From a virus: DNA of 20,192 bases. Positions within the stretch are counted from its first letter, which is position 1. Each line of letters starts with the position of its first letter. This document shows, piece by piece, positions 2,511-7,435 of this stretch. The translations under genes and the position numbers were made by a program. The stretch lies in the IMG/VR virus record IMGVR_UViG_3300028829_005913, positions 1 through 20,192 of that record; one strand, 5' to 3'. The notes under the pieces were generated by a model. That model saw only the letters and a list, made by a program, of their open reading frames with translations. It did no database searches and was not told the origin of the DNA.

Positions 2511-2845
2511 ATGATCAGATAACAGAAATAGAACAACATAAAATAACTTACGATAGTTATTTTAATTACCAAAATTTTAGCAGTGATGAACCTACTGCTA
2601 GGATCAATAGAACACCTTTTTACTTAAAGTATGAAGAAGGAGTACCAGCGTTTTATTTTAGGTACCAACATACGTTTAAAGAAATTTCTATTGAGGCGTT
2701 TCTAACCAATGCAGAGCAAAGTCGAATGTTTGATATGTCCGACTGGAAGCTCCAGGTAGAAACTTATTTTAACTTAACAATGGAGGAAATCCAATGTCAA
2801 ATCGAGGAACAACGGTTGATGAAAAAATCTTCAACCATCAATTAG
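2507..2845 (+). CDS. Unknown protein, early operon
   Basis: A 112-residue product starting in an ATGA overlap with the upstream gene. It is rich in aromatic residues in the first two thirds (YDSYFNYQNF, residues 15-24; FYLKYEEG, 38-45; FYFRYQHTF, 49-57) and has a helical C-terminus (NLTMEEIQCQIEEQ). No catalytic or binding motif is seen and I do not recognise it. The last 52 bp overlap the XRE-type regulator gene in another frame, which is long for this operon. Part of the C-terminus may be dispensable. Confidence 0.55.
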   Translation: MNDQITEIEQHKITYDSYFNYQNFSSDEPTARINRTPFYLKYEEGVPAFYFRYQHTFKEISIEAFLTNAEQSRMFDMSDWKLQVETYFNLTMEEIQCQIEEQRLMKKSSTIN

Positions 2846-3231
2846 GTAAAAATATTAGATACCTAAGAAAACAAAAAGGCTTTACACAAGAGAGATTAAG
2901 CAGAGTATGCGATGTCCGATTTCAACAAATTCAGAAATACGAAAAAGGCTCCAACTCACCTCATCCTTGCGCTTTAGTAAAGCTAGCTCAATTCTTTAAA
3001 GTAAGCTTAGATAAGCTATGTAGCCAAACACTAATAGAAGATGCTGAGCAATTTAAGAATAGAGTTAAAAGTCTAGAAGTAGCTACTGTCGATGGCGTAG
3101 GAATACCACTGGATGGCATGAACGCTGAAATAGATGCTTTGATTGCAAAGATGCAAAAGAACTCTGACAAATTTATTAAGGACCAACCACTGGTATTTAA
3201 ATTTGATAAGGAGGTTGATCCATGGCTGTAA
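2794..3231 (+). CDS. XRE-family helix-turn-helix transcription regulator
   Basis: A 145-residue protein with a clear XRE/Cro-CI-like HTH at residues 17-77: LGKNIRYLRKQKGFTQERLS, then a QQIQKYEKGSNSP recognition and loop segment, then LAQFFKVSLDKL. The C-terminal half contains helical stretches (MNAEIDALIAKMQKN) and probably mediates dimerisation. There is no LexA/CI-type Ser-Lys autoprotease domain, so RecA-triggered self-cleavage is not expected. GGAGG sits 8 bp before the ATG. It is the best candidate in the window for a lysis-lysogeny or early-operon regulator. It is embedded mid-operon and not divergently opposed to a cro-like gene. No operator was assigned. Confidence 0.85.
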   Translation: MSNRGTTVDEKIFNHQLGKNIRYLRKQKGFTQERLSRVCDVRFQQIQKYEKGSNSPHPCALVKLAQFFKVSLDKLCSQTLIEDAEQFKNRVKSLEVATVDGVGIPLDGMNAEIDALIAKMQKNSDKFIKDQPLVFKFDKEVDPWL

Positions 3232-3998: not shown

Positions 3999-4432
3999 TG
4001 ACTTATAGCGGTTTGTTTGATGAAGGAAAAAAGGATAAGCAAATCGCAAAGCTTAAAAAGAATCTAAAAGAAGTACGAGCTTCTTATGACAAAGACAGTC
4101 AACTATATCAGATTGAGATAGATCAATTAAAAGAAATAGATAAAGAACACCAAAAATTAAACGGTGAATTAAGAACTGAAATAGAAAAATTAAAAAAAGA
4201 AAACGAAATATTGTACGAAGGAAATGACGTACTTGGAATATATATTGGTGGAGGTGTTAAAGATAATTTGAAAAAAATTATAAAAAGTATGATTAAAGAT
4301 ATTGAAGTAGCAGCTCCAATTTTGAGAAGAAATCCAAAAGGAATATTATTTAAGACAAGTATCCAGTCTCTCGCAAAATATGCAAAGAGACTGAATGATA
4401 TTTACCAGGAAATGGTAAAAAAAATTAATTAA
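3998..4432 (+). CDS. Coiled-coil protein, last gene of the early operon
   Basis: A 144-residue product. Residues about 10-75 form a long, highly charged coiled coil (KDKQIAKLKKNLKEV, then IDQLKEID and EIEKLKKENEILYEGND). The remaining part is a basic helical region ending SLAKYAKRLNDIYQEMVKK. There is no transmembrane segment or enzymatic motif. It starts in a TAATG overlap with the upstream stop. Its 3' end overlaps the end of the convergent integrase gene by 8 bp, so no dedicated terminator fits between them and the two transcripts must overlap. The family is unknown. Confidence 0.58.
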   Translation: MTYSGLFDEGKKDKQIAKLKKNLKEVRASYDKDSQLYQIEIDQLKEIDKEHQKLNGELRTEIEKLKKENEILYEGNDVLGIYIGGGVKDNLKKIIKSMIKDIEVAAPILRRNPKGILFKTSIQSLAKYAKRLNDIYQEMVKKIN

Positions 4433-5657
4433 GCTTTAAAGCGTTATCTAAACTTTCAATATAATCGACATCTTTATCAGACTGATAATCTAAATCGTTG
4501 TGATCACCGTAAATCATACGAGTAGTTTTAATATCTCTATGACCTATTTGTGTTTTAATAAAGTTATCTGAAAGCATTGGATTAGCAGCTTGTGCATCAA
4601 GTAAAGCAGTAGATGCAAAGTGTCTAAAAGTTTTAAATGGTTCACCTTTAAACTTACAAGTAACTACTTTAACATGAGTAGCGTTATCTTCTATGACAGC
4701 TAAACCAATTTTAGCGTATGATCTGTATATAAAATTACGTAACTGTTTATCAGTAACTGGTAAAGCAGTTGTTGCATTTTGTAATACAAATCTTGGATTG
4801 ATTAATCTTTCAGCTTGATAGTCCTTCCATCTAGCTAATATTTTTCTCAATTTAGAAGGTATAAAAAGAACACGATCAGAGCCTTTAGCTTTAAGCTTAT
4901 GCTTAACCTTCTGCTCATCCATTTGTTGTTTAATATGTATTCTATTTGTTAAAGTATTAACACCACTCCACTCTATTGCTCTTACTTCGGCTGGTCTTGC
5001 ACCAGTGTAAATAAAAATACTAACAGCAACATAATTAACTACTTGATCATAATTTAATGGATCTGTAGGTTTGATAGCTTCTTGCAACCTATTAACTTCG
5101 TAACGGTTAATCATTGTAGTTTTTTTTCTTTTGTCGGAACCATCTTTTGGTTTTAACTCAGGATAATTTCCAACCTCAAAAAACTTAATGTTGTAATCTT
5201 CTTCCTCTATATAGCCTTGGTCTACACACCACTCAACCATACCTTTAAAAGAATATACCATCATAGAAGACATCTTAAATGTAGATCCATTTTTTCTAAT
5301 ATTCTTAAAAAAATTTACAAGATGTTTGGTTTTTAATTCTCTTAAAAGTACATCGTTAGGAAAGTAATCAATTATCCACTTACAATGTCTTTGATAGATT
5401 TTAGCTTGATGCTCACTTAGTTGGTCATGTGTATTCCATAAGTCAAACTTGTAATCAGCATAATTACTATAAGCTTGTCTTACTGTCATAGTATTTACAC
5501 TGGCTATAGCTTTCTCAGCATTTTCTAAAAGCCTTTTTCTAAATACTTGCGCATCTAATTTATCGTTAAAAGATGCAACTTGTTTGTATTTACCTAACTC
5601 ATCTTGCTTTTGAACAACGTAGTTTTTGTTTCTTTTAATTACTTTTGTCTTAATCAT
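4425..5657 (-). CDS. int: Tyrosine recombinase (phage integrase)
   Basis: A phage-type tyrosine integrase that would catalyse recombination between attP and a host attB. Numbering from the most upstream Met (5672), the catalytic residues are Arg226 (YTGARPAEV), the beta-hairpin Lys261/263 (KAKGSDR), Arg350 in FKTFRHFAST, His378 in QIGHRD, and nucleophile Tyr388 in TTRMIYGD. The first box reads Lys-x-x-Arg instead of the usual His-x-x-Arg, a substitution tolerated in some integrases. Residues 1-60 look like an arm-binding N-terminal region and 60-165 like a SAM-like core-binding domain. I prefer the start at 5657 because GGAG lies 9 bp upstream. Met codons at 5666 and 5672 are also in frame. 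The gene converges on the early operon (8 bp overlap). Confidence 0.95.
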   Translation of the reverse strand: MIKTKVIKRNKNYVVQKQDELGKYKQVASFNDKLDAQVFRKRLLENAEKAIASVNTMTVRQAYSNYADYKFDLWNTHDQLSEHQAKIYQRHCKWIIDYFPNDVLLRELKTKHLVNFFKNIRKNGSTFKMSSMMVYSFKGMVEWCVDQGYIEEEDYNIKFFEVGNYPELKPKDGSDKRKKTTMINRYEVNRLQEAIKPTDPLNYDQVVNYVAVSIFIYTGARPAEVRAIEWSGVNTLTNRIHIKQQMDEQKVKHKLKAKGSDRVLFIPSKLRKILARWKDYQAERLINPRFVLQNATTALPVTDKQLRNFIYRSYAKIGLAVIEDNATHVKVVTCKFKGEPFKTFRHFASTALLDAQAANPMLSDNFIKTQIGHRDIKTTRMIYGDHNDLDYQSDKDVDYIESLDNALKLN

Positions 5658-5727
5658 TTTTATCATCTCCATTGGTTATAGAGTTGACATCAACAATTTC
5701 AAATTTAGGAAGGTCTACAACTTGGAA

Positions 5728-5773
5728 CGGTCGTAATGTAAACGACTGGTTTAACCCACTCACCCAACTGGTC
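5728..5773 (-). other. tRNA-like D-arm and anticodon-arm segment upstream of int
   Basis: Read on the minus strand, the segment follows the 5' half of a class II tRNA. It has 7 bases in acceptor position (GACCAGT), TG, a 3 bp D stem GGT/ACC around an 11-base loop containing GTGGG, one A, then a perfect 5 bp stem GTCGT/ACGAC with a 7-base loop TTACATT. It shares AGTTGGGTGAG exactly with the tRNA-Ser gene at 6595. By hand alignment I count 32 matches in 47 columns with one gap. No matching T arm or acceptor 3' strand follows, and position 37 of the loop is T, so it is not a working tRNA. The hairpin also has the shape of an integrase core site (inverted arms, 7 bp centre). Confidence 0.4.
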
Positions 5774-5791: not shown

Positions 5792-6002
5792 GTCACTTGT
5801 GTATCTTTTTTTGTACCTTGGAAGTTACAATTTGAAGTTTTTTGGTGACATGTAACACAATTTAAAGTTTGATTTCGTGTTACAAGACAATCTAAAAGTG
5901 TTTGCTGACAACTCATACCAGTCATTCTATGAGCGACTAATTTCGTTAGCAAGCAATTAGTTTTGTTATATACCGCAACGTTTTTAACATGACTTGTGAC
6001 AA
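5792..6002. repeat. Degenerate direct repeats with GTNAC boxes
   Basis: On the minus strand, boxes of the form TTGTMAC occur at 5996-6002 (TTGTCAC), 5905-5911 (TTGTCAG), 5879-5885 (TTGTAAC), 5845-5851 (ATGTCAC), 5824-5830 (TTGTAAC) and 5792-5798 (AAGTGAC). Two of them continue as GTRACACGAAA. On the plus strand ACAATTTGAAGTTT (5827), ACAATTTAAAGTTT (5857) and ACAATCTAAAAGTG (5887) recur at exactly 30 bp spacing. TTTTGTACCTT occurs at 5777 and 5809. Such clusters next to an integrase commonly serve as arm-type binding sites or operators. No protein partner can be assigned from sequence. Confidence 0.55.
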
Positions 6003-6071
6003 ATCGTGTATCTTTTGCCGAAAATAGCAAATCAAGTTGAGAAATTATTTAAAGATAAACTTCTAAATGAA

Positions 6072-6551: not shown

Positions 6552-6580
6552 TTGAAACACTCAGCAATTCGGTCTATAAC
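6552..6580 (+). promoter_or_regulatory. Sigma70-like promoter of the tRNA-Ser gene
   Basis: TTGAAA (6552-6557) and TATAAC (6575-6580) each match the -35 and -10 consensus in five of six positions and are separated by exactly 17 bp. Transcription would start near 6587, leaving a leader of about 8 bases before the mature tRNA 5' end at 6595. The -35 and spacer lie in the region upstream of the divergent zinc-ribbon gene, supporting a start for that gene at 6519 or 6546. It is the clearest host-type promoter in the window. Confidence 0.7.
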
Positions 6581-6594
6581 GCTTATGCAAAAAT

Positions 6595-6687
6595 GGAGAG
6601 TTGGGTGAGCTGGTTGAAACCACACGTTTGCTAAATGTGCGTAGGAAGAAATTTCTACCGAGGGTTCGAATCCCTCACTCTCCGCCA
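6595..6687 (+). tRNA. tRNA-Ser (anticodon GCT), complete with CCA
   Basis: A full class II tRNA can be folded by eye. The acceptor stem GGAGAGT (6595-6601) pairs perfectly with ACTCTCC (6677-6683), then discriminator G and encoded CCA (6685-6687). The D arm GGT/ACC carries a loop containing CTGGTTG. The anticodon stem CACGT/ATGTG (one G-T pair) holds loop TTGCTAA, giving anticodon GCT for serine codons AGC/AGT. A long variable arm GTAG...CTAC is typical of tRNA-Ser. The T arm is GAGGG/CCCTC around TTCGAAT. It lies on the plus strand within an otherwise minus-strand block and ends one base before the stop codon of the neighbouring gene. It may be a phage-borne tRNA or part of an attachment site. 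Confidence 0.96.
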
Positions 6688-6688
6688 G

Positions 6689-6883
6689 TTATCTTCCAGT
6701 AAATTTGTCGAACCAATAAAATATTCTTCCAAATTGTTTATCAACATTTAACAATTCATTTTGAATTGAACTCACTGTTGCTTGTAATTCTGTAATAGAG
6801 ATTAAGGTCCAAGCAGATAAAGATAATAATATTCCACCAACAATTGGTAATATCCAACTATAATCCTTTTTGCCTTTTCTCAT
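6689..6883 (-). CDS. Small single-span membrane protein of the lysis region
   Basis: A 64-residue protein with a basic N-terminus (MRKGKKDYSW), one hydrophobic segment (residues about 10-31, ILPIVGGILLSLSAWTLISI), and a polar helical C-terminus (TELQATVSSIQNELLNVDKQ). N-terminal span plus coiled tail is the layout of small holin or inner-membrane spanin-type proteins, and the endolysin is encoded nearby. The sequence does not decide between these. Its start lies within the end of the upstream 35-codon gene (26 bp overlap, different frame). Its stop sits directly beside the tRNA 3' end on the other strand. Confidence 0.6.
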   Translation of the reverse strand: MRKGKKDYSWILPIVGGILLSLSAWTLISITELQATVSSIQNELLNVDKQFGRIFYWFDKFTGR

Positions 6884-7087: not shown

Positions 7088-7435
7088 TTCTTCTTAAATT
7101 TATTCATCGTAGTTACACCAAAAGATGCACCAACTATTGTAAGAATAATGTACCAAAACATATTGAAGTATCTCCCAGCCTCTTTGCATAGCATCCTGAG
7201 TAGCTGGTATAAAATGACAAGCCATAAGGATTGTGAAAAAAACAACTAACCACTCATCCTTAAATGAGTTCTCTTGTTGTTTTACTTGTTCTACAGAAAT
7301 ATTTTGAGCAGCTTCTATTTCTTTAGCTTTAATAATTTTATCCTTCTCTAACTTATGTTGAATTGCACCTACTGTTTTCTCAGCAACAATTCTAGTTAAA
7401 GGATTTTTAAGTAAAGGTAATATAAAGTTAAGCAT
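7084..7435 (-). CDS. Holin-like membrane protein with an apparent +1 frameshift
   Basis: The intact frame from ATG 7435 runs 111 residues to a stop at 7100. It shows a hydrophobic start, a Lys/Glu/Gln coiled segment (residues 25-58), then KDEWLVVFFTILMACHFIP (60-78), the first clear membrane span, and RGWEILQ. After that, the frame gives an atypical Cys/Trp/Tyr-rich tail. The +1 frame instead reads MFWYIILTIVGASFGVTTMN followed by KFKKK, a good second span and basic end. It stops at 7084-7086 in an ATGA overlap with the next gene. Dropping one base of the four-T run (minus strand, 7155-7158) joins them as EILQYVWYIILTIVG. This layout is common in phage holin-like proteins. A sequencing error, a real mutation or recoding are all possible. 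Confidence 0.68.

Follow-up and report, generated by a model that had tools for sequence, protein, structure and literature searches.

A phage tRNA-Ser(GCU) gene near a tyrosine integrase and the probable tRNA-dependent lysogeny of a SAR11 phage

The stretch of viral DNA analysed here, which we call the window (IMG/VR record IMGVR_UViG_3300028829_005913, positions 1 to 20,192; 20,192 nucleotides), carries a complete tRNA-Ser(GCU) gene close to a tyrosine integrase gene, and so raises the question of what this tRNA does for the phage. A preliminary description of the sequence offered two readings: capture of the tRNA for AGC/AGT decoding, or an unusual attP that carries the full gene. Our comparisons with related viral contigs and host genomes favor a different one: the window very probably derives from a temperate phage of SAR11 (Pelagibacter), bacteria that abound in the ocean, with tRNA-dependent lysogeny, in which the phage tRNA-Ser(GCU) would replace a host gene split by integration.

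The tRNA gene and its surroundings

The tRNA is intact and encodes its CCA, as had been read from the letters: ARAGORN calls a tRNA-Ser(GCT) at 6595-6687 on the plus strand, and the Rfam tRNA model gives it 52.6 bits (cut-off 29 bits). It runs antisense to its neighbors and to the late block as a whole, and a single base lies between it and the stop end, at 6689, of the gene on the other strand (6689-6883), both of which agree with the preliminary description. The distance from the integrase start at 5672 is 923 bp, and that from the attP core described below is 643 bp (Table 1).

The same description credited the tRNA with its own consensus-like promoter, which is correct as to the hexamers and their spacing (TTGAAA at 6552-6557, a 17 nt spacer and TATAAC at 6575-6580), but weak as to promoter status: a scanner for consensus promoters did not call the pair, since it requires a final T, which TATAAC does not have, and of the tRNA-bearing relatives only the closest (L051/L073; TTGAAA-17-TATAAG) has such hexamers at the 17-nt spacing. 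They also sit shortly upstream of the likely ATG of the divergent gene (about 6546). We regard this as a possible, weak promoter of the phage tRNA, not an established one.

Table 1 Features of the window discussed in the text, with coordinates on the 20,192-nucleotide stretch.
Feature	Position	Strand	Basis
Helix-turn-helix regulator, possible lysogeny regulator	2794..3231	+	Pfam HTH_3
Tyrosine integrase	4425..5672	-	Pfam Phage_integrase (PF00589) above cut-off; PHROG integrase; catalytic residues
Decayed stretch like host tRNA-Ser 5' half	5727..5766	-	Local alignment score 40 vs shuffle maximum 26
Direct repeat GTGTATCTTTT, possible arm-type integrase site	5799..5809	+	Sequence
Inverted arms ACTAATT...AATTAGT in the attP core region, perhaps core-type sites of the integrase	5936..5961	.	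Sequence
attP core TTGCTAA (TTAGCAA on +), identical with the whole anticodon loop (7 nt) of the host tRNA-Ser(GCU)	5946..5952	-	L003 phage/host junction; predicted attL
Second copy of GTGTATCTTTT, on the opposite side of the core	6006..6016	+	Sequence
Promoter-like hexamers TTGAAA-17-TATAAC (weak)	6552..6580	+	Direct reading; same spacing only in L073; scanner negative
tRNA-Ser(GCU), complete, CCA encoded; proposed replacement of split host gene	6595..6687	+	ARAGORN; Rfam; pairing conserved, with compensatory changes, across 11 relatives

A junction contig and a split host tRNA gene

The IMG/VR contig IMGVR_UViG_3300028844_000518 (L003) is near-identical to the window and has the same tRNA, with a 99% match from window position 5946 onward. 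Its phage sequence ends at window 5946-5952, and beyond this point lie the 3' half of a SAR11 tRNA-Ser(GCU) and then SAR11 chromosome: the first ~100 bases of L003 differ from the window, and their reverse complement is TTGCTAAATGACCGTGCGGGGAAACTTGTACCGAGGGTTCGAATCCCTCCTCTTCCGCCA plus flank. Part of this end sequence is present in twelve Pelagibacter/SAR11 genome contigs, where it falls within tRNA-Ser(GCU), and 11 of these 12 loci hold the whole gene, while in the twelfth the contig ends within it. Past the tRNA, the flank is nearest to SAG-MED48 and SAG-MED49. The junction and the SAR11 tRNA and flank that follow it thus mark L003 as the end of a prophage in SAR11, and the window as the form with an intact attP. 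The preliminary description was right to suggest comparing the tRNA with tRNA-Ser genes of hosts and with the borders of prophages. In principle L003 could be an assembly chimera, against which stand the position of the break, exactly at the core, and a flank that is collinear with SAR11. The split host gene and the phage tRNA gene are different genes of the same isotype, GCU, and the phage tRNA is retained whole inside the prophage in L003.

In the crossover region, attB is CCAGTCGTTTGCTAAATGACCG and attP is ACTAATTGCTTGCTAACGAAATTAGT, and their contiguous common stretch is TTGCTAA only. The attL predicted from them is identical to L003 at 100/100 bases. Of these sites, only attB gives an ARAGORN tRNA call; attL, attP and the predicted attR give none. 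Beyond TTGCTAA attP does not continue the tRNA, as it would where a tRNA gene is reconstructed in canonical integration. Integration therefore splits the host tRNA-Ser(GCU), and neither junction (attR as predicted) rebuilds it. Scans for further attL or attR junctions returned only L003 and four viral contigs with a whole SAR11-like tRNA-Ser(GCU) (L104-L107), and attR was not found among them; these four, on which no relative of the tested integrases was found, are apparently other marine phages. A scan with the attP arm ACTAATTGCTTGCTAA returned five contigs besides L003, and tRNA-Ser was found in none of these.

The consequences for the host depend on its other serine tRNAs. The SAR11 genome HTCC9565 has one tRNA-Ser(GCU), one Ser(TGA) and one Ser(GGA), and when 297 genomes of the family were searched, each genome appeared once among the matches listed. 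By standard decoding rules AGC and AGU are read by neither Ser(TGA) nor Ser(GGA). With no other serine tRNA to read these codons, a host that loses its tRNA-Ser(GCU) should die unless the loss is complemented.

Several smaller features of the region deserve mention. The decayed stretch between attP and the integrase gene, TGGGTGAGTGGGTTAAACCAGTCGTTTACATTACGACCGT, keeps the anticodon stem while its loop is now TTACATT, and may be what is left of an earlier attP or tRNA copy. The phage tRNA has the TTGCTAA loop too, inverted relative to attP, so that self-recombination must somehow be avoided. The window and L003 also differ in the minus-strand gene at 7100-7435: about 11 bases (CGGATCTGCAA) near 7161 are absent from the window, which alters the C-terminal part of the protein (111 aa in the window, 120 aa in L003).

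Integrase, tRNA and core in related phages

A search based on the endolysin led to two relatives, L051 and L052, whose integrases are 54% and 36-37% identical to that of the window, and whose tRNA-Ser(GCU) matches that of the window in position and orientation; the same search returned L053-L055, with no such integrase on the contigs and no tRNA in the stretches examined. A profile built from the three integrases (window, L051 and L052) then identified 23 loci, and in 11 of them, on eleven contigs including those of L051 and L052, a tRNA-Ser(GCU) lies antisense upstream of the integrase gene. The integrases of these eleven contigs are 28-54% identical to that of the window, and R226, R350, H378 and Y388 are invariant in 12 relatives. 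TTGCTAA is found upstream of the integrase gene, in the same direction, in all 11 tRNA-bearing loci, mostly at -220 to -300. The core is present in 16 of 16 loci tested (window included) where 1.7 are expected by Markov resampling, a test that left out L074 and L081 and in which many members are related. A match to attB longer than 7 bp is seen in L075 (17 bp) and L082 (13 bp), still too short for the tRNA to be rebuilt. With a wider integrase profile only two more loci appeared, L108 and L109; each has the core, and a flank too short for the tRNA check.

The link between integrase and tRNA is not absolute: L074 has a related integrase and neither core nor tRNA, and L081 has TTGCTAA at -190 and no tRNA on the contig. 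These two loci share TTATAAGGCTTCTATCATAA upstream of the integrase gene, which is possibly a different attachment site, one to which no host tRNA could be assigned.

The tRNAs themselves bear the marks of selection on structure. Across twelve phage tRNAs, with identity down to 59%, 27 of 27 pairs are kept (100% of cells), compared with an average of 72% paired in shuffles; compensatory changes occur at 22 of the 27 pairs, in all five helices, and no pair is broken. Such a pattern reads as the signature of a working tRNA and not of an att remnant. Divergence of the tRNA correlates with that of the integrase (Mantel r 0.76, p 0.0002). Yet between L089 and L091 the integrases are 91% identical and the tRNAs, both Ser(GCU), only 69%, which suggests that the tRNA module has been swapped with the isotype kept.

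A model for integration, its alternatives and known systems

We propose that the tyrosine integrase recombines attP with the host tRNA-Ser(GCU) gene at its anticodon loop; the host gene is split, and neither predicted junction folds as a tRNA. The tRNA lost in this way would be the sole one with a GCU anticodon in HTCC9565, the SAR11 genome examined. The phage tRNA would be transcribed in the prophage and substitute for it, and a lysogen that lacked the phage tRNA would not be viable. On excision, attP and an intact host gene would both be regained. A tyrosine integrase, attB within a host tRNA gene, a short core (attR as predicted) and matching isotypes are all found here, as in tRNA-dependent lysogeny described elsewhere. 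What speaks against the model is the weakness of the phage tRNA promoter, the existence of the L074 and L081 integrases, the dependence of the junction on L003 as its sole contig, and an attR that has not been seen.

Carriage of tRNA genes is common in phages, and codon supply has been proposed as their role in many. The tRNA could likewise have been captured for AGC/AGU decoding in lytic growth, its nearness to attP being incidental, and the occurrence of a whole SAR11-like tRNA-Ser(GCU) on the four unrelated-looking viral contigs, away from any tested-integrase relative found, fits this idea. However, AGC and AGT make up 28% of serine codons in the late genes and 30% in all window genes counted, compared with 31% in 70 host ORFs, so that use of these codons is not raised over the host and a codon-supply role is not supported. 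Capture would also leave two things unexplained: that the phage's single tRNA corresponds to the gene that integration splits, and that this tRNA is repeatedly associated with the integrase. We consider capture very unlikely. The phage tRNA might instead counter a host anticodon nuclease that cuts the host tRNA-Ser(GCU), an idea raised for tRNA-Lys (PMC10865867). The anticodon stems of the phage (CACGT/ATGTG) and the host (GTCGT/ATGAC) do differ, but the anticodon loops are identical, and replacement of a split gene accounts for the isotype unaided; the chance that this is the explanation seems slimmer still.

We give the least credence of all to the tRNA gene being itself the attachment site or its remnant, an unusual attP with a whole gene and promoter. 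It is near the integrase gene and holds the TTGCTAA loop, but the observed junction is hundreds of base pairs away, the L003 prophage retains the phage tRNA whole, and the compensatory changes point to function. The preliminary description thus rightly saw a functional-looking tRNA linked to integration near the integrase gene, but neither of the two readings it offered is right as it stands.

If the replacement model is right, its mechanism is one already known from actinobacteriophages (PMC10865867) and proposed for tRNA-Leu in SAR11 phages (PMC6811365), and the present case appears to work alike, with another tRNA, another integrase and another phage group. Tyrosine integrase, attB in a host tRNA gene and a same-isotype phage tRNA near the integrase gene are shared with the actinobacteriophages Fionnbharth, LeBron and Gaia, in which tRNA-dependent lysogeny was shown experimentally, and so is a core too short for rebuilding (8-17 bp there, 7 bp here; PMC10865867). 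Those phages use tRNA-Lys, tRNA-Ile2 and tRNA-Leu in Actinobacteria, and the requirement was established by experiment (PMC10865867), whereas the window phage has tRNA-Ser(GCU), a SAR11 host, a core that is the anticodon loop, and evidence from sequence only. Canonical prophages that target tRNA genes likewise combine a tyrosine integrase with a tRNA gene target, but their cores of ~40-50 bp carry the end of the tRNA and rebuild the gene, which the 7-bp core does not; an HTVC019P-like genome, for example, has a 46-bp tRNA-Leu match (PMC3861242).

New elements are the tRNA isotype and the phage group involved, a core that equals the anticodon loop, and conservation over a divergent integrase family. 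tRNA-dependent lysogeny, whose prevalence outside actinobacteriophages was said still to need investigation (PMC10865867), would extend to a second SAR11 phage group and a new tRNA isotype. A lone phage tRNA near an integrase gene may be readable as a lysogeny gene, which offers a route to attB sites with cores too short for the usual predictions. The implication is that a SAR11 lysogen relies on a viral gene for translation, and that an infected cell probably survives only through the tRNA that the virus supplies. We lean toward a broader view in which lysogeny tied to a phage-borne tRNA-Ser(GCU) is an old, family-wide strategy of the marine phages of this integrase lineage: the integrase would use as a near-symmetric core the anticodon stem-loop of a tRNA gene that seems to be single-copy, the tRNA module would be exchangeable as long as the isotype is kept, and the prophage would be addictive for streamlined hosts.

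The HTVC019P-type group III pelagiphages HTVC011P, HTVC025P and uv-Fonsiphage-EPL also have SAR11 hosts, and uv-Fonsiphage-EPL, with a core of 11 bp, is stated to replace the lost host gene by its own tRNA-Leu (PMC6811365). We confirmed a tRNA-Leu(TAG) in HTVC011P and HTVC025P. In this group it lies just downstream of the integrase gene on the same strand, whereas the tRNA-Ser(GCU) of the window lies upstream on the opposite strand, and a search with the window integrase at E 1e-5 did not match the group III integrases. The closest isolate is Pelagibacter phage HTVC028P (integrase 25.6%, internal virion protein 32.8%), which has a similar gene order, with the integrase, small genes, M15 peptidase and late genes on the minus strand, and in which no tRNA gene was found; a DNA similarity search of isolated phages gave distant tRNA matches only. 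Among the 297 SAR11 genomes, relatives of the integrase reach just 24-26% identity and have other tRNA genes, or no tRNA gene, nearby. Four of these distant integrases (25-26%), in genomes L068, L070, L071 and L072, are found near tRNA-Val, tRNA-Cys, tRNA-Met and tRNA-Cys, respectively.
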